IMG/VR virus record: IMGVR_UViG_3300006753_000045 | Span: 1-28,206 of that record | Source of the DNA: a virus | DNA: 28,206 nt | Strand: one strand, 5' to 3' | In this document: one piece after another, positions 12,473-27,940 of the stretch | Layout of the letters: each line of letters begins with the position of its first letter | Numbering within the stretch: the stretch's first letter is position 1 | Position numbers and translations under genes: made by a program | Notes under the pieces: model-generated | Database searches by the model: none | What the model saw: only the letters and a program-made list of their open reading frames with translations | What the model was told of the DNA's origin: nothing

Positions 12473-13184
12473 TTGCAGGGAAGTCAAATAAGTCTAAGTT
12501 AGGAATAATGCAATGTCCCCCAATCTCTCCTTCAGAATGATGAAGAACAGGACGGCGAACGTGGCGCATATTCATAGCAGTATATCCTTGATTATAAGTC
12601 TCTGTAGCATCACGATAAATGAGATCATAGTCTAAATTATTCTTTTTACAGAACTCATAGACCATCTTCTCCCACATAATTTGCCACCCATATGCAGTAG
12701 TTGAAAGTAACTTTAGTGCCTCTGTATCTCTTGCCCTCTTCCCAACGTGAACCTCAATTTGAACATCTTGAAAATATTTTTTTAGCCAGTTATCACAAGG
12801 AGCAACATACTTAACAAACGTCCATAGTGATTTGTCAAGAACTGGATGAACACCTCTGATAGGAGAATGAGATGCACCCAATTCTTCTGAAGTACCAATA
12901 GGTACAGTGCCGTGAATTACTGTGTACTTCGGATCAAACAGTAATTGATATTGAGCAACTATATCTATGAACTTATGGGAATAAGGGATGCAAATATGGA
13001 GAACATCTAGCTGACCATATTCAAACATTGCCTTACCTAAATCCTTAAGATCATCCCCTTCTTCAACACCAAAGGTTTGATGTTTTTTCTTCCAAAGAAG
13101 AATACGATATAGTGCGCCACCAGTTTCGCCCTTGTAACCAACAACGAGACTGGTAACTTTATTTGTGGACTCTTTCTGTAACAT
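12372..13184 (-). CDS. NAD(P)-dependent dehydrogenase-like protein (nucleotide-sugar dehydrogenase fold)
   Basis: 270 residues. The N-terminus has a beta strand and glycine-rich turn, SLVVGYKGETGGALYRILL (G16, G19, G22), typical of a Rossmann NAD site. Next come VLHICIPYSHKF and VIHGTVPIGTSEELG, as in 6-phosphogluconate/UDP-sugar dehydrogenase-like folds, then HSPIRGVHP. Residues 218-232 contain GEIGGHC, resembling the GGHC dimerisation or active-site region of UDP-glucose and GDP-mannose dehydrogenases. At 270 residues it is much shorter than those enzymes (about 390-450), so the reaction is not certain. The C-terminal 33 residues are basic and share DNA with the Com gene. Expected role: oxidising or reducing a sugar in the same pathway. 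Confidence 0.6.
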   Translation of the reverse strand: MLQKESTNKVTSLVVGYKGETGGALYRILLWKKKHQTFGVEEGDDLKDLGKAMFEYGQLDVLHICIPYSHKFIDIVAQYQLLFDPKYTVIHGTVPIGTSEELGASHSPIRGVHPVLDKSLWTFVKYVAPCDNWLKKYFQDVQIEVHVGKRARDTEALKLLSTTAYGWQIMWEKMVYEFCKKNNLDYDLIYRDATETYNQGYTAMNMRHVRRPVLHHSEGEIGGHCIIPNLDLFDFPANEIIKKQNSRFKMRGVSKSVRKSSKRSNWRRRD

Positions 13185-13923
13185 CTTTACCTTGTTTAAT
13201 CTTTTGTAGTTTTATTTCATTAGCTGTTGAAACCGCTTGATATACATCTTTTAGATTTATTTTTACCCAGTGAGAACAAATATAATCAAGATGAGCAAAA
13301 ATTTGAAAACCTTTTGCTTTCGCTTTTTGGCAAAATGAAAGGTCAAGTCCTAAAGTTTTAAGACCCTTCTCGTCATACCGATTACAAAATGGTTGTTCAT
13401 TTTCAAGTGCCTCAAGAACATCTCTACGAATAACAATTAACCCTGTACCAATAGCATCAACTTCTGCAACACCCTCATCTCCTTCTAAATCCATAACTTT
13501 ATAAGGCTTTCTAGGATCTTTTCTTTCCTCCTCCGGTATTTCCTTAAGAATAAGCGGAATAATCCCGTCATCCATATAAGCGAAACATACGCAACCCATT
13601 ATAGGTTTTTGATGATCAACTAAGTCAAGAATATTTAGCGGTGGGATTATATCAGAGTCAATCATCATAAGATAATCATACTCAGGTTTTGAAAGGAAAT
13701 CTTGGACAATTTCATTTCTATTATTAGAAATTGGCTTAGCTGAGGGATACGAAAGATGTAATCTATATTTTCTCTGATGTGTCATTTCCGTAGCTAGTCC
13801 TGCCAACTCTACACGTACATTACCTTGATTAAGAATAGCAACGTAGACTCCTTTTGAGTTAAGTTCAGGATTAGTTTTTGGTTCAAACTTTACCTCAACT
13901 TCTTGTGGTTCTTTTTTAGCCAT
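13159..13923 (-). CDS. GT-A fold glycosyltransferase (family 2-like)
   Basis: 254 residues. After a charged N-terminal tail, VYVAILNQGNVRVELAGL and NNRNEIVQDF lead into YDYLMMIDSDI, where DSD (residues 89-91) is the DxD metal and nucleotide-sugar site of GT-A enzymes. Residues 192-207 (LGLDLSFCQKAKAKGF) give the acidic catalytic-base region, followed by a conserved-type histidine (SHW, H219) that commonly binds the metal. No membrane segment, so it is cytoplasmic. It overlaps both neighbours by a few bases. It may add one sugar of the glycan built by this block; donor and acceptor unknown. Confidence 0.82.
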   Translation of the reverse strand: MAKKEPQEVEVKFEPKTNPELNSKGVYVAILNQGNVRVELAGLATEMTHQRKYRLHLSYPSAKPISNNRNEIVQDFLSKPEYDYLMMIDSDIIPPLNILDLVDHQKPIMGCVCFAYMDDGIIPLILKEIPEEERKDPRKPYKVMDLEGDEGVAEVDAIGTGLIVIRRDVLEALENEQPFCNRYDEKGLKTLGLDLSFCQKAKAKGFQIFAHLDYICSHWVKINLKDVYQAVSTANEIKLQKIKQGKDVTERVHK

Positions 13924-15007
13924 TATCTTTCTTTGTTAAACTTTTAAAATACTCTCCGACTTTTTGTACTACATAATCGACCTCCTTCTTAGTCATTTGA
14001 GTATAAGTAGGTAGGTAGAAACCTTCTGTAGATCTTCTGTAAGCTTCGGTCATAGCGTGATTATCTTTGTAATACATAGGTTGCATACTTATCGGCTTGA
14101 AAAACAAACGAGTATCAACTCCATTTTCTTTCAAGAATTTCCTTAAGCCGTCACGAAGTTCTGAATGAGTGACACGAATATCATACATCCACAAGACTTT
14201 TCTAGGAGGCATCATTATTAAATATGGACAATCAAGCGCAGACAATCCAACGTTATACCATTTCTCTATTTGTTCTCTCTTTTTAAGAATTTCATCAATC
14301 ATTTCAACTTGAGATAGAGCAACCGCCGCCTGAAGATTTGTCATACGATAATTGTATCCAATCTTTCTGTGAAAAAATGTATGTTCAGGATCAAACGCCA
14401 TCGCTCTTAAGTGCTTCATTTGTTCTGCAAGACGTGGATCATTTGTTAGACAAATTCCACCTTCACCTGAAGTTAAAATCTTATTTCCAAAAAGAGAATA
14501 ACAAGCTATATCTCCAACTGGTTTAATGCCGTGAGACTCTGCAGAGTCCTCAATCACAAAAAGATTATAGTCGTGAGCAAAATCCATAATTGTTTTCATA
14601 TCACACTGCCTCCCATAAATATGAACAGGCATAATGGCTTTAATATTTGGATGTTTTCTCAATAGTTCAGGAATCTGTCTAACATCCATAAGTAGATCAG
14701 TAGTACAATCAATAGGTACAACTTCTACTCCACAATAGGTAGCAGACCAAGCTGAAGCCACCATAGTGAATTCGGGTACGAGAATTGCATCACCTCTTTT
14801 AAGACCTAAACCTCTAATAGCTAGAGTTAGAGCCGTAGTTCCTGAACTACACGCAACTCCGTGAGCATAACCATTATACTTAGCCCACGCCTCTTCAAAC
14901 TTATCAATATAACCTCCCTTTGAAGAGATCCAGTTTGTATCATAAGCATCAAGTAGATACTTACGACCTTGTTTATTTAAGTAGGGTTGGCTAACTGGGA
15001 TGTTCAT
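13916..15007 (-). CDS. per: GDP-perosamine synthase-like aminotransferase (DegT/DnrJ/EryC1/StrS family)
   Basis: A PLP enzyme of about 363 residues. Counting from the TTG at 15028 used for numbering, SGTTA (62-66), IEDSAESHG (D161 facing the PLP ring nitrogen) and SLFGNKILTSGEGG (K183, the PLP Schiff-base lysine) are all present. 'GNKxxTxGEGG' is typical of perosamine synthases, which make GDP-perosamine from GDP-4-keto-6-deoxymannose using glutamate. A lysine rather than histidine at 183 argues against the ColD-type 3-dehydrase. I chose the ATG at 15007 because MNIPVSQPYL matches the family start; 15013 is also possible. The gene overlaps the gmd 3' end by about 17 bases, so substrate-making and -using enzymes are coupled. 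The product could be another 4-amino sugar. Confidence 0.85.
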   Translation of the reverse strand: MNIPVSQPYLNKQGRKYLLDAYDTNWISSKGGYIDKFEEAWAKYNGYAHGVACSSGTTALTLAIRGLGLKRGDAILVPEFTMVASAWSATYCGVEVVPIDCTTDLLMDVRQIPELLRKHPNIKAIMPVHIYGRQCDMKTIMDFAHDYNLFVIEDSAESHGIKPVGDIACYSLFGNKILTSGEGGICLTNDPRLAEQMKHLRAMAFDPEHTFFHRKIGYNYRMTNLQAAVALSQVEMIDEILKKREQIEKWYNVGLSALDCPYLIMMPPRKVLWMYDIRVTHSELRDGLRKFLKENGVDTRLFFKPISMQPMYYKDNHAMTEAYRRSTEGFYLPTYTQMTKKEVDYVVQKVGEYFKSLTKKDNG

Positions 15008-15992
15008 AGTCATAATGTACCATTTCAAATACCAATTCCTTAAAGGAGATACTAGGTGACCACCCCAACTCTTCCTTTAATTTTGTAGAGTCCCCGTGAA
15101 GTTCTTTAACCTCATTAGGACGTATCAATCTATCAGAGATCTTAACGTGTTTTTCAATAGACAAATTTGATCCATATCGTTCGTTCGCTACTCTAAATGC
15201 CTCCTGAACAAACTCTCTAACTGAGTGAGTTTCACCTGTAGAAATAACAAAGTCATCAGGCTTATCGTGCTGTAAAATTCTCCACATTCCTTCAACATAA
15301 TCTCTTGCGTGTCCCCAATCTCGTTTTGCATCAAGATTTCCTAAAGTAATAACATCTCTTTTCCCTTTCAGAATTTCTGCAATAGCAATGGTAATCTTTC
15401 TAGTAACAAAGTTCTCTCCTCTTCGTGGTGACTCGTGATTAAACAAGATTCCATTTGAAATAAACATTCCATATGCTTCACGATAAACACGAACCATATT
15501 ATATGCATAGAGTTTTGCAACTCCATAAGGAGACTTAGGAAACATAGCTGTATTTTCATTCTGTGGAGTTTGTTCAGGATCACCAGAGTAAAGCTCTGAT
15601 GTTGAAGCTTGATAAATTTTTATAGAAGGATTAAGTATTCTAACTGCCTCAATGACATTTAAAACACCAAGAGCATCTACCTGACCTGTATAGATTGGAG
15701 TATCATATGAAACCTGAACGTGAGATTGAGCAGCTAGATTGTAAATCTCATTAGGTTTCACTTCTTTTATGATTTTGATCAAGGATGCAATATCAGACAC
15801 ATCACCATAATGTAATTGAAATAAACTACCAACATTTTCGTGACTAGGATAGAGATGTTCAATCCTTCCACGATTAAAACTGGAAGATCTGCGAACAATT
15901 CCGTGAACCTTGTAACCTTTATCAAGAAGCAATTCCGCTAGATATGAGCCATCTTGCCCAGTTACGCCCGTAATAATTGCTACTTTTTGCAT
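14991..15992 (-). CDS. gmd: GDP-mannose 4,6-dehydratase
   Basis: 333 residues, full length for the family. It converts GDP-mannose to GDP-4-keto-6-deoxymannose. Seen: GVTGQDGSYLAELLL (NAD(P) glycine motif, residues 9-23), YNLAAQSHVQVSYDTP, ASTSELYSG (T131, E133 of the catalytic set), YGVAKLYAY (Y156 and K160 of the YxxxK pair), ILFNHESPRRGENFVTRKI and GNLDAKRDWGHARDYVEGMW. No GDP-fucose synthase follows, so the product goes to the aminotransferase encoded next. GDP-mannose must come from the host, since no mannose-1-phosphate guanylyltransferase gene is in the window. One of the safest calls here. Confidence 0.96.
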   Translation of the reverse strand: MQKVAIITGVTGQDGSYLAELLLDKGYKVHGIVRRSSSFNRGRIEHLYPSHENVGSLFQLHYGDVSDIASLIKIIKEVKPNEIYNLAAQSHVQVSYDTPIYTGQVDALGVLNVIEAVRILNPSIKIYQASTSELYSGDPEQTPQNENTAMFPKSPYGVAKLYAYNMVRVYREAYGMFISNGILFNHESPRRGENFVTRKITIAIAEILKGKRDVITLGNLDAKRDWGHARDYVEGMWRILQHDKPDDFVISTGETHSVREFVQEAFRVANERYGSNLSIEKHVKISDRLIRPNEVKELHGDSTKLKEELGWSPSISFKELVFEMVHYDYEHPS

Positions 15993-17014
15993 AGGTTTTC
16001 AAATTCTTCCATATACTTAGGAGCGAGTTTCTCCCAAGAAAACTCTTCTGCGAGTTCATTGGATTTTTCTGATAATTCTTCAATCTTTTTACTACCCATC
16101 TTTGCAATCTCATCAATCTTTTGAGCAATAATTTTAGGGGCAACAGTACAAGTTTGAATATCTCTAAGAGGTAGTTGAGACATTCCAGTAGCTGACGGCG
16201 GGATCATCATTTCCTTAGGTAAGATCGTATTATAAGGTTCACGATCAATAGCAAGGATTGGTAGCCCTGCTGACAGTGCCTCCTGAAGAGGTAGAGAAAG
16301 CCCATCAAACTTATGAAGATGAATATAGACATCCCCTATAGCCCACAGAGCTTCGTGAGGCACTTCACCCATAGTGATCTTTACTCTCTTATCTTTGAAG
16401 TCCATTTCAAAAGGTACTTGAGATCGGATATGAAATGTCACATCACTCTCAACAAAAGGTAGAGCTTGTAGAAATTCATTGATTGAGTTTCTTCCCCCAG
16501 TTCCTCCGTGTCCATTATTAAACAAGAATTCTGTGCCACCTGTTCTTTTGATAAATTTAGTTTTTTCACGATCAACAGGTACTGGTATAAGAACCTTGTT
16601 TCCCCACAGAGTATCGTAGTCTAATTGTGTAGGACATAGATATAGATCAAACTCTTCAGGCATTGAGTCTTTCATTGGAGTCCATTCATACATCACAACT
16701 AAAGCAGTTTTAACTCCTTGCTCTCGTGCATATTTGATTAAATTCCAATTATAAGGAGTCTCAAAACATACCAACATATCAAGATCCTTAACGAATTCAA
16801 GACACTCATCCCTCGTAGGAATTCCACGAGCGGCGATAAATCCATTTGGCGCACCATCATAACGATCATAGAATTGTTCGTAAGTTGATCCTGCAATCAT
16901 TATCTTGCTAAAAGGCAAATGTTTATAAAAATCGTAAGACAGAGTTCCTAGACCTGAATTGTCTGCCCTCAAAACTGCACCTATTCGTAAATCTGTTTTA
17001 ATTTTTTGTGACAT
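15980..17014 (-). CDS. glycosyltransferase, GT-B fold (family 4-like)
   Basis: 344 residues. The N-terminal domain includes GLGTLSYDFYKHLP and FETPYNW. The C-terminal domain has a glycine-rich turn (NNGHGGTGGRNS, 166-177) and the donor-binding signature DGLSLPLQEALSAGLP (237-252), with E245 as the expected EX7E-type acidic residue. This is a retaining GT-B enzyme using a nucleotide sugar, probably GDP-linked given its neighbours. I chose the ATG at 17014, with a 17-base overlap of the methyltransferase gene; the longer form would use TTG. It overlaps the start of gmd by 13 bases. The gene is coupled to both, and it may transfer mannose or the perosamine derivative. Confidence 0.85.
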   Translation of the reverse strand: MSQKIKTDLRIGAVLRADNSGLGTLSYDFYKHLPFSKIMIAGSTYEQFYDRYDGAPNGFIAARGIPTRDECLEFVKDLDMLVCFETPYNWNLIKYAREQGVKTALVVMYEWTPMKDSMPEEFDLYLCPTQLDYDTLWGNKVLIPVPVDREKTKFIKRTGGTEFLFNNGHGGTGGRNSINEFLQALPFVESDVTFHIRSQVPFEMDFKDKRVKITMGEVPHEALWAIGDVYIHLHKFDGLSLPLQEALSAGLPILAIDREPYNTILPKEMMIPPSATGMSQLPLRDIQTCTVAPKIIAQKIDEIAKMGSKKIEELSEKSNELAEEFSWEKLAPKYMEEFENLCKK

Positions 17015-17585
17015 ATACAAGAAATACTTTAACGTTATCGCTATTAACTGTAATTTCTACTCTTCCATATTGGTCAAAAAGTTCAGACATATCAGCATAT
17101 CCAAAAGACCAGAGATGCTCATCTGAAATTAAGGATTGTCCTCTTCCTTCCATATATGGTGTAGAAATAGCCATAGTACCACCTGACTTCAAAACTCTCA
17201 TTGCCTCTGCAATCATTTCTTGAGGCACTTCAAGATGTTCAAGCAATTCACCTGAAACAATGTAGTCAAAGTACTCATCCTCGTAAGGAAGTTCGTAGCA
17301 ATCGCCGACCTTATAATTAACATTTGGAAATTTAAGACTCATTACATCAATCACTCTTTTAGCGTGATCAATGCCGTGTATTTCATTCCCTTCAATCTCT
17401 GCTAACTCACCTAGTTTAGGAGAGTTAAAACACCCAATATCAAGGTATCGTCCCCCCTTGAAATCACGTGCAAGTTCATCAAATCTATTACCATCAACAG
17501 TATGGACATCCTCATTCCATTTCTCTTTAAAAATCTTCTCAGATAATTCAGGTGTATTTATATTTTTTCGTGTAAATCTTTCCAT
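16998..17585 (-). CDS. class I SAM-dependent methyltransferase (small-molecule or sugar type)
   Basis: 195 residues from the ATG at 17585 (MERFTRKNINTPELSEK). AdoMet motif I is YLDIGCFNSPKLGEL (47-61), with an acidic residue at the end of the next strand (GIDHAKRVID, D73). Next come GDCYELPYEDEYFDYIVSGE and the LLEHLEVP post-motif, and MRVLKSGGTMAISTP. This is the Methyltransf_11/23 layout common in O-antigen clusters, where such enzymes O-methylate terminal sugars. The upstream extension to 17708 overlaps the formyltransferase gene and is rejected as the start. Substrate unknown; the block suggests the perosamine glycan. Confidence 0.82.
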   Translation of the reverse strand: MERFTRKNINTPELSEKIFKEKWNEDVHTVDGNRFDELARDFKGGRYLDIGCFNSPKLGELAEIEGNEIHGIDHAKRVIDVMSLKFPNVNYKVGDCYELPYEDEYFDYIVSGELLEHLEVPQEMIAEAMRVLKSGGTMAISTPYMEGRGQSLISDEHLWSFGYADMSELFDQYGRVEITVNSDNVKVFLVYVTKN

Positions 17586-17607
17586 ATTAAAAGTGATGAA
17601 GGGGACA

Positions 17608-18243
17608 TCACTCCAAGAGCTTTGCCCCCTTCTCATAATCCAGTTCAAACTTACGACCATCACGAGTAACAAAGAAACCCTGCGGCTTCCCGTCAAACGT
17701 GAAGGCACGAACCTGACGTGTTAGATTCATTCCTCCTTCAAGAGCTTTGCGGAGATATAGACCTCTCTTCTCCAAATCTTGAGGCACAGCCATCCATTGA
17801 CCTTGAATTAAGTCAACGAAACGTCTTTTGAAGAGTGTGAAGATAGCCTCTTCTGCCTTAGAAAACAAGGTTTGCGCTGTATCACTCTCCTCAATAGAGA
17901 AACGCTCAATCTCAATGATATTTCCCGTGTCAATTCCCGCCGAGAGGACGTGAAGGGTAATACCCGCTTCATCTTCGCCATTGAAAAGACTCCAAGATAA
18001 GGTACAACTTCCCGCATATTCAGGAAGAATTCCCGGATGCAGATTGAAGTAGCCAACATCAGGATCAAGGAGATTATCAGGAATAATCCTCTTATACATC
18101 ACCGAGATTACGACATCATAGCCAGTATTATCTTCAGTATAGGTATCGGATATAGACAACTCCACTTCATTAGGAAGATGCATTGAAGCCCATTCAAAGC
18201 ATCTTCTTCCTATTGGTCTTGATGTTAAAAGTAATAATCTCAT
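17608..18243 (-). CDS. sugar N-formyltransferase (WbkC-like, formyl-THF dependent)
   Basis: 211 residues. The N-10-formyltetrahydrofolate transferase core is clear: FNLHPGILPEYAGSCTLSWS with catalytic N67 and H69, and HVLSAGIDTGNII with D105. These three residues form the Asn-His-Asp catalytic set of the family. At this length it is a stand-alone sugar N-formyltransferase, not methionyl-tRNA formyltransferase, which is about 310 residues with a C-terminal domain. The tail YLRKALEGGMNLTRQVRAFT, then FDGKPQGFF, is also typical of sugar formyltransferases. With gmd and the perosamine-type aminotransferase it gives GDP-N-formylperosamine, as in Brucella O-antigen. It overlaps its upstream neighbour by four bases (ATGA type). 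Another amino sugar is possible. Confidence 0.87.
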   Translation of the reverse strand: MRLLLLTSRPIGRRCFEWASMHLPNEVELSISDTYTEDNTGYDVVISVMYKRIIPDNLLDPDVGYFNLHPGILPEYAGSCTLSWSLFNGEDEAGITLHVLSAGIDTGNIIEIERFSIEESDTAQTLFSKAEEAIFTLFKRRFVDLIQGQWMAVPQDLEKRGLYLRKALEGGMNLTRQVRAFTFDGKPQGFFVTRDGRKFELDYEKGAKLLE

Positions 18244-19085
18244 AGTATCTCCTTTAGTCTATTATGTATGGCTTTAGCCATTACTTGTGGTGTGAACTGA
18301 TTACAGAACTCTCTACATTTTATTTTATCTAACTTACGTGGAAAATTCCACATTTTTCTTAATTGTTTTTTAAGATCAACAATATAAGCATAGTCAAAGT
18401 ATTCTGCCTTGTCTCCGAAATAATCTCTTGCTCCCATATATGGAGAGTTTGAAACTAAAACAGGCTTACCTAAGTTATAAGCTTCAAGAAGAGTCAATCC
18501 TCCTGTTGAAGCCTCATAATAAGGGCAAACTAAGAAAGAACAAGTTGAGAGTTTTTCTTGAAACTCTGCTTCACTCCATCCGTGATTTGGTGTAAAAGAG
18601 GGAATACCCAATTCTGCCACCGCCTTTTCAAACATTCCGAGATTACGATCAGGTTGTGAACGCATAACGTTAATAATGAAACGTTTATCTTCAACCTTGA
18701 CTGGCGGTTCAAAGAAACGAGCAAACGTCTTAATGATATAATAACTCTTTAAGTTGTAGTATTCAATAAGTCTCCTGTTGACAGATTCAGAAGGAGTCCA
18801 AGTCTCAATTCCTTCGTGCATAAACTGCCCGTAAGCATCCCAATCATAGCCACGAGGATTAGTCCTAGTCCATTCGTAAACATCCCAACAATAATTTACA
18901 ACAGGAACATCAGGGCATTGATCGTGCAGTCTCTTAGCAAGATTAAGCTGAGAATTGCTCCATACGATCATTACGTCAGTTTGTGGGGTTACATCATTCC
19001 AAAGAATAATATGCCCTAAATCATTAAGATAAGGTACGAGATCCTTTAGAAAGTTATTTTGTGGAATGATAAAACTTATTCGCAT
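18240..19085 (-). CDS. glycosyltransferase, GT-B fold (family 4-like)
   Basis: 281 residues, shorter than most GT4 enzymes because the N-terminal domain is compact. Visible are VVNYCWDVYEW, WTPSESVNRRLIEYY, and the donor-site signature EASTGGLTLLEAYNLGKPV (residues 191-209), with acidic residues E191 and E201 in the EX7E-like arrangement and a CP(Y)YEAST lead-in. No membrane segment. It overlaps the formyltransferase by four bases and the methyltransferase upstream by ten, so it is firmly within one operon. Donor unknown; GDP sugars made here are plausible. Confidence 0.82.
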   Translation of the reverse strand: MRISFIIPQNNFLKDLVPYLNDLGHIILWNDVTPQTDVMIVWSNSQLNLAKRLHDQCPDVPVVNYCWDVYEWTRTNPRGYDWDAYGQFMHEGIETWTPSESVNRRLIEYYNLKSYYIIKTFARFFEPPVKVEDKRFIINVMRSQPDRNLGMFEKAVAELGIPSFTPNHGWSEAEFQEKLSTCSFLVCPYYEASTGGLTLLEAYNLGKPVLVSNSPYMGARDYFGDKAEYFDYAYIVDLKKQLRKMWNFPRKLDKIKCREFCNQFTPQVMAKAIHNRLKEIL

Positions 19086-19540
19086 AATATTTTGTGTGGA
19101 TTTGGATCGTGACTAGGAAAAACAATTATTCTTTTTGCGACTCTCTTTGCCTCTTCAAGTAAACAATTATTGAACTCTTGTCCTTCAATCGCACCAATTT
19201 CATCATTCAAAACTCCGACAGAAATAACCCAGTCAAACTCATTATCCTTAAAATCATTATTAAGAAAATCAGCTAAGATAAATCTTTTCTTAGGATACTT
19301 CCTGTGTGCTTCATCAATAAATTCAGGAGTAATATCAATACCGGTATATTCAGTAACTTCTGAAGGAAGTACATCAACAAGTCGTCCATAGCCACAGCCA
19401 AGATCAAGAACCTTCCCCCAAACACATTTTTTAAGAACTTCTTTTTTATTATTCATTCCACTATTACCTGAGATAGCAGAGATAAACCCTGTTTTTCTAA
19501 GTCTATTTTGCCAAAACTCAGGTGTAGTGAACGCCCACAT
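19076..19540 (-). CDS. class I SAM-dependent methyltransferase, short form
   Basis: 154 residues. Motif I is VLDLGCGYGRLVDVL (44-58), followed by TGIDITPEFIDEAHRKYP (D69), FILADFLN and FDWVISVGVLNDE (motif IV region). It stops soon after the fold's core, so it lacks the C-terminal strands seen in larger members; about 150 residues is nevertheless near the lower limit of complete small methyltransferases. The start overlaps the previous stop (TAATG). It may methylate a sugar in the same glycan. Distinct in sequence from the other methyltransferase at 16998-17585. Confidence 0.78.
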   Translation of the reverse strand: MWAFTTPEFWQNRLRKTGFISAISGNSGMNNKKEVLKKCVWGKVLDLGCGYGRLVDVLPSEVTEYTGIDITPEFIDEAHRKYPKKRFILADFLNNDFKDNEFDWVISVGVLNDEIGAIEGQEFNNCLLEEAKRVAKRIIVFPSHDPNPHKILCE

Positions 19541-20436
19541 TAGACTATTTTGTTCTTTACAAGAGTATGAATAAGAGTCTCAAGTCTCTTAGAGTATGTA
19601 TAATCAGTTATTGTCTTTTTATATCCTGCTATTTGGATCTTCTTTCTTTCTTCTTCATTTTCAAGATAATAATCAATTTTATCTTTCAGTTGATGCCCTG
19701 TAGCATACATAGCAACCTCCTCATCCTTTTTAAACTCTTCCTTAAGACCTTCAAGTTTAGGATAAAGCATAAATCCGCCTGATCCAGTAGTCATATAAAC
19801 ACGACTAGACCAATAAAAATCATCTTGAGGTGTACGGGGCGAAACAATAATTTTTACCGAAGCACAGGCATCATATAAATCTCGTCCAAAGACATTTGAA
19901 AAGATCCTAAACTTATCGCCATAAGTTTCTTGCAGACCTCTAACAAATGACTCTCGTTGAGCGCCATAGACACTTCCAAAAAATGCAATATCACAAGCAT
20001 ACTCTTCTTTAAATTCTCCTAGAGAAGTATCCTCATCACCAATTCCCTGATTAAGATAAGTTATATTTGGATAGTTCTGCCTTCTGATCCACGTACCATC
20101 AGTTAAGAAGGCGTGATCAATATACGGAATAACCGTGTGCATCCAATGTTCTCTTTCACCATCAAAAACCTTATCAAAATACCAAAAAACCTTAGGTATG
20201 GTTACCTTGTTTAATAATTCAATAAGTTCAGGGAGTTCAACATCAAATGCTTGACCTCCTTTATGAAATAGTAAAAGATCCTTGCCTCTGCAAGTTTTAA
20301 CTATTTCATCAACATCAAAGTCCTTCTCATCAATTTGAGTAACTTCGTGTCCTAGTTTTTCAAGAGAAAACACTATGTGTTTCTCAGTAGTGTCTGAAAA
20401 TTTGTTGCCAAAATTTCCTAAGTACGCAATTAACAT
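19540..20436 (-). CDS. CgeB-like glycosyltransferase (GT-B fold)
   Basis: 298 residues from the ATG at 20436 (MLIAYLGNFGNKF). An upstream TTG at 20499 would add a leader that runs into the hairpin after the capsid gene and is rejected. Features: KHIVFSLEKLGHEVTQID at the N-terminus, FHKGGQAFD, FWYFDKVFDG, DHAFLTDGTW, CDIAFFGSVYGAQRESFV, VSPRTPQDDFYWSSRVYM with TTGSGGFMLYP, then a C-terminal helix. The 'SSRVYMTTGSGGFML' region is typical of CgeB/spore-maturation type glycosyltransferases. It is the first sugar gene after the major capsid gene, so it would be expressed at high late-gene level unless the hairpin at 20494-20520 attenuates. Confidence 0.78.
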   Translation of the reverse strand: MLIAYLGNFGNKFSDTTEKHIVFSLEKLGHEVTQIDEKDFDVDEIVKTCRGKDLLLFHKGGQAFDVELPELIELLNKVTIPKVFWYFDKVFDGEREHWMHTVIPYIDHAFLTDGTWIRRQNYPNITYLNQGIGDEDTSLGEFKEEYACDIAFFGSVYGAQRESFVRGLQETYGDKFRIFSNVFGRDLYDACASVKIIVSPRTPQDDFYWSSRVYMTTGSGGFMLYPKLEGLKEEFKKDEEVAMYATGHQLKDKIDYYLENEEERKKIQIAGYKKTITDYTYSKRLETLIHTLVKNKIV

Positions 20437-20493
20437 AAGCAGTATAGATAATTTAATAATGAGTAGTGGAGTGGGGAAGAGCCTAGCTTTCTT

Positions 20494-20520
20494 CCCCAAC
20501 CCGCTAGACAGGGGTCGGGG
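20494..20520 (-). other. stable hairpin after the major capsid gene, no T-run
   Basis: On the minus strand CCCCGACCC pairs with GGGTTGGGG (nine pairs, one G-U) around the loop CTGTCTAGC. No run of T follows, so it is not a standard intrinsic terminator. It lies between the capsid stop (20541) and the first sugar gene (20436). It may protect the 3' end of capsid mRNA after cleavage or slow read-through, letting the capsid be made in excess over the sugar enzymes. Confidence 0.65.
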
Positions 20521-26834: not shown

Positions 26835-26863
26835 TTGACTTATCCCACAGGTGGGATTATACT
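26835..26863 (+). promoter_or_regulatory. strong early promoter with a palindromic operator in its spacer
   Basis: TTGACT (26835-26840), a 17-base spacer, TATACT (26858-26863): five of six consensus bases in each box at ideal spacing. The spacer is filled by ATCCCAC-AG-GTGGGAT, a perfect seven-base inverted repeat (26842-26857), so a repressor bound there would block RNA polymerase. Expected start near 26870. It drives the rightward small genes and points away from the late operon. Confidence 0.8.
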
Positions 26864-26884
26864 ACATAACAAGAAGGCGAGAAC
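26856..26884 (-). promoter_or_regulatory. possible divergent promoter for the small terminase and late genes
   Basis: On the minus strand there is a perfect TATAAT (26861-26856) overlapping the early promoter's -10 box. Only a weak -35, TTCTCG, lies 16 bases upstream. The start would be near 26849, inside the same palindromic operator, so one regulator could control both directions. Confidence 0.3.
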
Positions 26885-26993
26885 ACGAGAGCGGACGAGA
26901 ACAAAAACATATTCAAAAATTATAAAAAAGTTTCTGCGGTTCGCTCTCTCCCTCCTTCCCGAATTTTATCAGGTCTTTAAAAACTATGCAATT
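26870..26993 (+). promoter_or_regulatory. structured leader of the first early gene
   Basis: Begins at the predicted start point and carries AGGCGAGAACA (26874-26884), the block found again before the next two genes. A seven-pair stem, GAGAGCG (26887-26893) with CGCTCTC (26942-26948), encloses an A-rich loop of 48 bases. CCTCCTT (26951-26957), equal to the 16S anti-Shine-Dalgarno sequence, lies just after. No good ribosome site precedes the ATG at 26994. Confidence 0.45.
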
Positions 26994-27113
26994 ATGAAAT
27001 ACTGGATAATTTTTATCGTTCTGTTTTTGCTTGGGATCGCATACCTTATTTGGCTAGACTGGGGCTGTGATCTCTCTGGCATTATGACTTGGAGCGGTAA
27101 AGTTTGTATTTAG
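26994..27113 (+). CDS. small membrane protein, 39 aa
   Basis: One membrane span (residues 3-20, YWIIFIVLFLLGIAYLIW), then a short outside or periplasmic tail with two cysteines (WGCDLSGIMTWSGKVCI). The pair could form a disulfide. First gene of the early transcript. The longer frame from 26835 would start upstream of the promoter's own start point and is rejected. Possible superinfection exclusion or host-membrane role, by analogy with other early phage membrane peptides; not shown by sequence. Confidence 0.6.
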   Translation: MKYWIIFIVLFLLGIAYLIWLDWGCDLSGIMTWSGKVCI

Positions 27114-27248
27114 CCCTTGATATTGATCTTTAGTAGCGGGAATATTCGCCCCGCTAAGTCGTCTAGCGACAGGGACTCGCTAAAGATCAATAATGAGGGG
27201 CGAAAGCCCTTTTGGTCGGATATTATTACAATTAGGCGAGAACATATT
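27108..27248 (+). promoter_or_regulatory. structured leader element, copy 1
   Basis: Starts in the stop of the previous gene. Long stem: TATTGATCTTTAG (27121-27133) with CTAAAGATCAATA (27180-27192), 13 perfect pairs. Inside: TAGCGGG/CCCGCTA (27134-27140 / 27150-27156) and GTCG/CGAC (27158-27161 / 27167-27170). After it: a GNRA hairpin, AGGGGC-GAAA-GCCCTT (27196-27211). AATAAT (27189-27194) can instead pair with ATTATT (27222-27227), excluding the end of the long stem. It ends with AGGCGAGAACAT, a weak ribosome site eight bases before the ATG at 27249. Copy 2 shares the order of stems. Confidence 0.65.
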
Positions 27249-27647
27249 ATGGATTATAAAAAACAAGGCGAGGACTTTTTGAAAAAGACAAAAACCACGC
27301 TTGAGTTTGTGGAGTGTACCCCTCAAAAATCCCCACTATGGGCGAAAGAAGGAGAAGAACACGGCACAGAATACACTATAACCCTAAAAAACGAAAAAGG
27401 AGAGTATTCTTTTGGTTATTGGGGAAGTATTGCGGACAAAGAGGAGAAGAGAAAGCCAACAGCTTACTCAATCCTTGCCTGTCTTGACGTTTTTGATGGT
27501 GATTTCTCTGAGTTTTGCTCGTGTTTTGGTTATGACGAGGACAGCAGAACAGCAGAAAAAACCTTCCACGCCGTTCAAGAGCAGAGCAACAATTTACGAA
27601 GAATTTTTACTCATAAAGAATTGGGAAAGCTCCAAGAAATAAATTAG
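27249..27647 (+). CDS. conserved hypothetical phage protein
   Basis: 132 residues from the ATG at 27249 (MDYKKQGEDFLKKTKTTLEF). The middle has EYTITLKNEKGEYSFGYWGS, then KPTAYSILACLDVFD, and DFSEFCSCFGYDEDSRTAEK with a C-terminal helix. The 'PTAYxxLACLxxxD ... FCxxFGYDEDSxxAEKxxxAV' pattern is one I recognise as a hypothetical family common in phages and bacterial mobile elements; its function is unknown. The ORF extends upstream to 27117, but that part is the structured leader, so the internal ATG is preferred. Cytoplasmic, no membrane segment. Confidence 0.78.
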   Translation: MDYKKQGEDFLKKTKTTLEFVECTPQKSPLWAKEGEEHGTEYTITLKNEKGEYSFGYWGSIADKEEKRKPTAYSILACLDVFDGDFSEFCSCFGYDEDSRTAEKTFHAVQEQSNNLRRIFTHKELGKLQEIN

Positions 27648-27778
27648 ATTTAGCTCTTGATATTGCTCTTTAGATCCGCAGAGTACTCTGAACGGCTAAT
27701 AATTTATCGGCGGGGTCGCTAGAGAGCAATAATCAGGCACTAAAGGTCGGTGATTATTGGAATAATAGGCGAGAACAT
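27648..27778 (+). promoter_or_regulatory. structured leader element, copy 2
   Basis: Long stem: TATTGCTCTTTAG (27661-27673) with CTAGAGAGCAATA (27719-27731), 12 Watson-Crick pairs and one G-U. Compared with copy 1, an A-T pair has become C-G in step. Inside is CCG-CAGAG-TA-CTCTG-AA-CGG (27676-27695). AATAATCA (27728-27735) pairs with TGATTATT (27751-27758), overlapping the long stem; ATTATT-GG-AATAAT (27753-27766) is a third option. It ends AGGCGAGAACAT before the ATG at 27779. Confidence 0.65.
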
Positions 27779-27940
27779 ATGAACGAAGAAACTTTTGGAG
27801 CATTAAAGCGGATCGTTGAAGAAGTAGAAGAAAAACGCAAAGCTGAATGTTTAATGAAAGATTGCATCATAAACCACAATATCGGCGGGAATGATATAGA
27901 TCTCGTTAAAACTTGGATCAAAGACAATGAAAAAACCTAG
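27779..27940 (+). CDS. small acidic hypothetical protein, 53 aa
   Basis: Starts MNEETFGALKRIVEEVEEKR, an amphipathic helix, then AECLMKDCIINHNIGGNDID with two cysteines, and a C-terminal helix (LVKTWIKDNEKT). It follows the second structured leader directly. The composition fits a small early regulatory or host-takeover protein; no family recognised. The next gene's ATG overlaps its last codons by 14 bases. Confidence 0.65.
   Translation: MNEETFGALKRIVEEVEEKRKAECLMKDCIINHNIGGNDIDLVKTWIKDNEKT

Follow-up and report, generated by a model that had tools for sequence, protein, structure and literature searches.

Duplicated intercistronic hairpin leaders, possibly of the RNase III site type, in the predicted early operon of an uncultivated tailed phage

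The virus record IMGVR_UViG_3300006753_000045, which represents an uncultivated phage and was analysed over its whole length (the window, positions 1 to 28,206, a total of 28,206 bases), has two related intergenic elements, leader 1 (27108-27248) and leader 2 (27648-27778), each of which spans the gap from the stop codon of the upstream gene to the next ATG. It is suggested here, tentatively and at a little short of even chance, that they are duplicated intercistronic hairpin leaders in a rightward early operon of a tailed phage, with a role in processing or stability of the kind known for the RNase III sites of phage T7. The sequence points to paired stems that are conserved better than at random, to the stop-to-start position of the leaders and to a shared tag, and from these we infer cleavage, the nuclease involved and the function of the tag.

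Genome organisation and setting of the leaders

The phage has a leftward block of genes, with those for the terminase large subunit, the major head protein, glycosyltransferases and lysis, and, downstream of a sigma-70-type promoter, a short run of small genes that point rightward. The features of this rightward region are as follows.

26835..26863, + strand: sigma-70-type promoter TTGACT-17-TATACT (10/12 matches, 17-nt spacer)
26875..26885, + strand: third copy of AGGCGAGAACA (ATAACAAGAAGGCGAGAACA, 85% identical over 20 nt to 27225-27244)
26994..27113, + strand: small ORF of 39 aa, membrane-like, its stop codon TAG lying inside the start of leader 1; no family match
27109..27133, + strand: leader 1, left arm of the long stem (repeat comparison, arm pairing)
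27134..27179, + strand: interior of leader 1, with two small hairpins and little resemblance to that of leader 2 (folding)
27180..27206, + strand: leader 1, right arm, pairing over 20 bp with the left arm (folding, arm pairing)
27214..27248, + strand: leader 1, conserved tail GGTCGG..ATTATT..AAT.AGGCGAGAACATATT (alignment)
27249..27647, + strand: gene of the phrog_4273 family, 132 aa, function unknown (E = 2e-18)
27649..27673, + strand: leader 2, left arm (repeat comparison, arm pairing)
27674..27718, + strand: leader 2, interior with its own hairpin (folding)
27719..27744, + strand: leader 2, right arm, pairing over 23 bp with the left arm (folding, arm pairing)
27745..27778, + strand: leader 2, conserved tail GGTCGG..ATTATT..AATAATAGGCGAGAACAT (alignment)
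27779..27940, + strand: small ORF of 53 aa after leader 2; no family match

The promoter is likely to be the early promoter of the phage, with a predicted transcription start at about position 26870. Its spacer holds the palindrome ATCCCAC-AG-GTGGGAT (26842-26857), as would be expected of a repressor operator. The right end of the record lies only 430 bases past leader 2, so further copies of the element to the right are possible. A Shine-Dalgarno sequence is absent before most genes of the phage.

Elsewhere in the record, the stretch 661-780, located between the convergent genes 389-730 and 785-1021, gives one of the strongest folds on both strands and is probably a bidirectional terminator. 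Beside the head protein gene of the leftward block, genes for a glycosyltransferase, an aminotransferase, a nucleotide-sugar epimerase, a methyltransferase and a formyltransferase (13159-20499) form a sugar-synthesis cassette. A search of GTDB genomes with the terminase gave no host.

Structure of the two leaders

A preliminary description of this DNA, made from its letters, had placed a pair of structured elements 540 bases apart; both were located, with a spacing of 540 nt. They have in common a 25-nt left arm (identical at 23/25 positions), a 27-nt right arm (21/27) and a tail before the ATG that ends in the same 15-mer, TAGGCGAGAACATAT, in agreement with the identical ends first noticed. 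Loops and inner stems had been said to differ freely, and the interiors of approximately 46 nt are indeed mostly unalike and align poorly. The internal hairpins are also present, these being two small ones in leader 1 and one of its own in leader 2.

The long stem of 13 pairs is found in each copy, formed by TATTGATCTTTAG with CTAAAGATCAATA in copy 1 and by TATTGCTCTTTAG with CTAGAGAGCAATA in copy 2, and with the outer pairs included the stems become imperfect hairpins of 20 bp and 23 bp respectively. The compensatory change reported at its sixth pair, A-T in copy 1 and C-G in copy 2, is real, as is a further pair that is T-A in one copy and T-G in the other; the T-G pair mildly favours an RNA structure over a DNA palindrome. 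Folding energies no better than those of shuffled sequence had been named as grounds against such a structure. Measured against dinucleotide shuffles, both copies fold better (z = -2.9 for copy 1 and -1.9 for copy 2), and in a scan of the whole record with 120-nt windows copy 1 belongs to roughly the best-folding 1% and copy 2 only to the best 10%.

Conservation of the pairing was assessed by randomly distributing the observed number of substitutions along the arms of one copy or the other, a test that involved two copies and was run after the stem had been seen. Arm pairing as strong as the real one was retained in 0.8% (copy 1 to 2) and 0.2% (copy 2 to 1) of trials, the corresponding values for the core stem alone being 0.3% and 5.6% in the two directions. 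Arms swapped between the copies pair at -18.9 kcal/mol, compared with about -26 kcal/mol for arms of the same copy. A shuffle control on pair counts (241/500) is without power at two sequences. Because so few of the random outcomes (0.2-0.8%) match the observed pairing, selection has probably acted to keep the stem paired. The selection on RNA structure that was originally proposed is therefore supported by the substitution test, on a base of two copies with one double change and one G-U pair.

The shared tail

The sequence AGGCGAGAACA occurs three times in the record, always on this strand, with one copy in each leader and the third at 26875-26885. This third copy lies a few nucleotides past the predicted transcription start, so that the early transcript would carry it close to its 5′ end. 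A natural reading is that AGGCGAGAACA would be a common 5′ tag of the early mRNAs; another is that it would be a DNA-binding site. In addition, TCGCTA, in the interior before the right arm, is complementary with one bulge to TAGGCGA of the tail, and this is invariant in the two copies. It is distinctly improbable that these features represent cis-acting phage leader RNAs of a new class, with a hairpin under selection and the identical 3′ tag AGGCGAGAACAT, which the primary transcript would carry at its 5′ end as well, together providing all early mRNAs with a shared 5′ leader in place of the missing Shine-Dalgarno sequence.

Searches for relatives

A lack of further covarying copies in related phages had likewise been named as grounds against such a structure, and as far as was searched none were found, the element being confined to this virus. 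Pattern, covariance-model, protein and similarity searches detected it outside the window only in near-identical (99.9%) contig(s) of the same virus. In IMG/VR, a DNA pattern for the left arm returned 35 stretches, all of which, apart from the window's own virus, were without the element on inspection; the pattern AATAAT..GGTCGG..ATTATT had one other match, inside a gene, and the other matches to the tail followed by ATG and to the right arm had no such hairpin and look like coding sequence. A covariance model of both copies, run against 83 sources and five virus records, recovered only the two copies of this virus. IMG/VR relatives of the terminase, down to about 25% identity, had no copy within the flanks fetched, and blastn of the region against GenBank phages gave nothing of note.

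Homologues of the phrog_4273 gene were found in phages and none in plasmids. Two relatives, in L005 (41%) and L134 (49%), have an intercistronic hairpin directly before the gene that is unrelated in sequence (z = -3.6 and -4.5 respectively), as would be expected if the hairpin and not its sequence matters; in two others, L135 and L137, no hairpin was found before the gene. It is worth mentioning that in L005 (7994-8573) the leader and the beginning of the gene are repeated, the arms being identical and the hairpin loops different. The repeat, which lies at the contig end, may be a strain variant, a tandem copy or an assembly effect.

Alternative explanations

The main rival, although unlikely, is that the leaders are translational operators, with the ribosome or a protein of phage or host origin binding the hairpin and the AGGCGAGAACAT tail and thereby setting translation of the next gene. 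The tail, with 15 nt identical in both copies, is located where a ribosome would bind, and its AGGCGAG stands out because most other genes of the phage are without a Shine-Dalgarno sequence; the complementarity of TCGCTA and TAGGCGA in both copies can be read in the same way. However, there is no candidate protein, this complementarity never varies, and AGGCGAG is a poor match to the usual anti-Shine-Dalgarno sequence. It is quite unlikely that the leaders are mobile regulatory cassettes, consisting of repeated hairpin-plus-promoter units that recombination has distributed among small early genes, like the PeSL (promoter/stem-loop) elements of T4-type phages, which Arbiol et al. reportedly described in 2010. 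The occurrence of two related units with conserved ends between unrelated small genes resembles the repeated intergenic hairpin units of those phages, and the tail is A+T-rich (ATTATT). Unlike PeSL elements, the unit has no recognisable promoter or terminator: its tail is without a credible -35/-10 pair, and a scan for sigma-70-type promoters (phage-specific promoters being outside its scope) found none ending in the tails except for a weak match (9/12) within the stem region, at 27166-27194. The element is, moreover, known only twice, in one virus. As regards a mobile insertion, a flanking duplication was not seen by eye, leaving that origin unsupported.

The preliminary description had also proposed a conformational switch, in which the long stem would alternate with an overlapping second stem of AATAAT and ATTATT. 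In their letters the two strands are complementary and the two stems are mutually exclusive, but such a switch, possibly a riboswitch, is very unlikely: the alternative stem has a pairing probability of approximately zero in both copies and forcing it costs +6.58 and +6.73 kcal/mol of ensemble energy (6.6-6.7 kcal/mol dearer), while during transcription the long stem would be complete before the ATTATT strand is made. The Rfam covariance models gave no match at the gathering threshold, with only weak unrelated matches at E values up to 10. Transcription antitermination is served in lambda (nut) and HK022 (put) by structured RNA sites in early transcripts, and the leaders are likewise two related structured sites in a predicted early transcript, copy 2 carrying the boxA-like GCTCTTTA. 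That they are sites of this type is highly improbable, as copy 1 has GATCTTTA at this point, GCTCTTTA is no more frequent in the window than expected by chance and the stretch is buried in the stem in both copies, and on these grounds a nut/boxA site was rejected. The leaders also differ from the nut and put sites in having no conserved boxA and another architecture, with no read-through terminator seen.

Processing of the early transcript

The reading of the leaders as sites of the RNase III type between early genes, offered in the preliminary description as the simpler explanation, appears to fit best. The RNase III sites of T7 (R1.1 and others) are irregular hairpins of about two helical turns located shortly before the next start codon. 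The leaders resemble these in being irregular double helices of about two turns (20 bp and 23 bp, with bulges) placed before the next start codon, and in their intercistronic position in what is predicted to be a polycistronic early transcript. The RNase III reading is preferred because known sites of this type take the form of hairpins of such size lying between early genes. The leaders differ in having a longer interior with side hairpins and a conserved 3′ tag behind, in being known from sequence alone, and in that no sequence relation to the T7 sites was found.

Under this processing reading, the operon would be transcribed from the promoter at 26835-26863, and the RNA of each intergenic gap would fold into an imperfect hairpin of 20-23 bp, two helical turns long and with bulges. 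This may be cut by a double-strand ribonuclease (host RNase III) or may block exonucleases, so that the polycistronic RNA would be separated into units, each downstream unit being left with a short 5′ leader ending in AGGCGAGAACAT, as found near the 5′ end of the primary transcript itself. Early RNA of bacteriophage T7 is processed at five sites (PMC4858673).

In favour of processing, each leader occupies the whole space between a stop codon and the next ATG, its interior varies freely and its arms do not, and the third copy of the tag lies just downstream of the promoter; a scan for promoters and terminators found no terminator-like site at the elements. Against it, copy 2 folds only moderately better than its shuffles, and conservation is higher in the 3′ tail than in the hairpin, something needless for a mere nuclease site.

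The leaders are thus most likely a further instance of an ordinary kind of element. They add a pair of early-operon hairpin leaders with a compensatory change in phage genes that are largely without Shine-Dalgarno sequences, and their shared 5′ tag offers a concrete lead on how translation may start in such phages.
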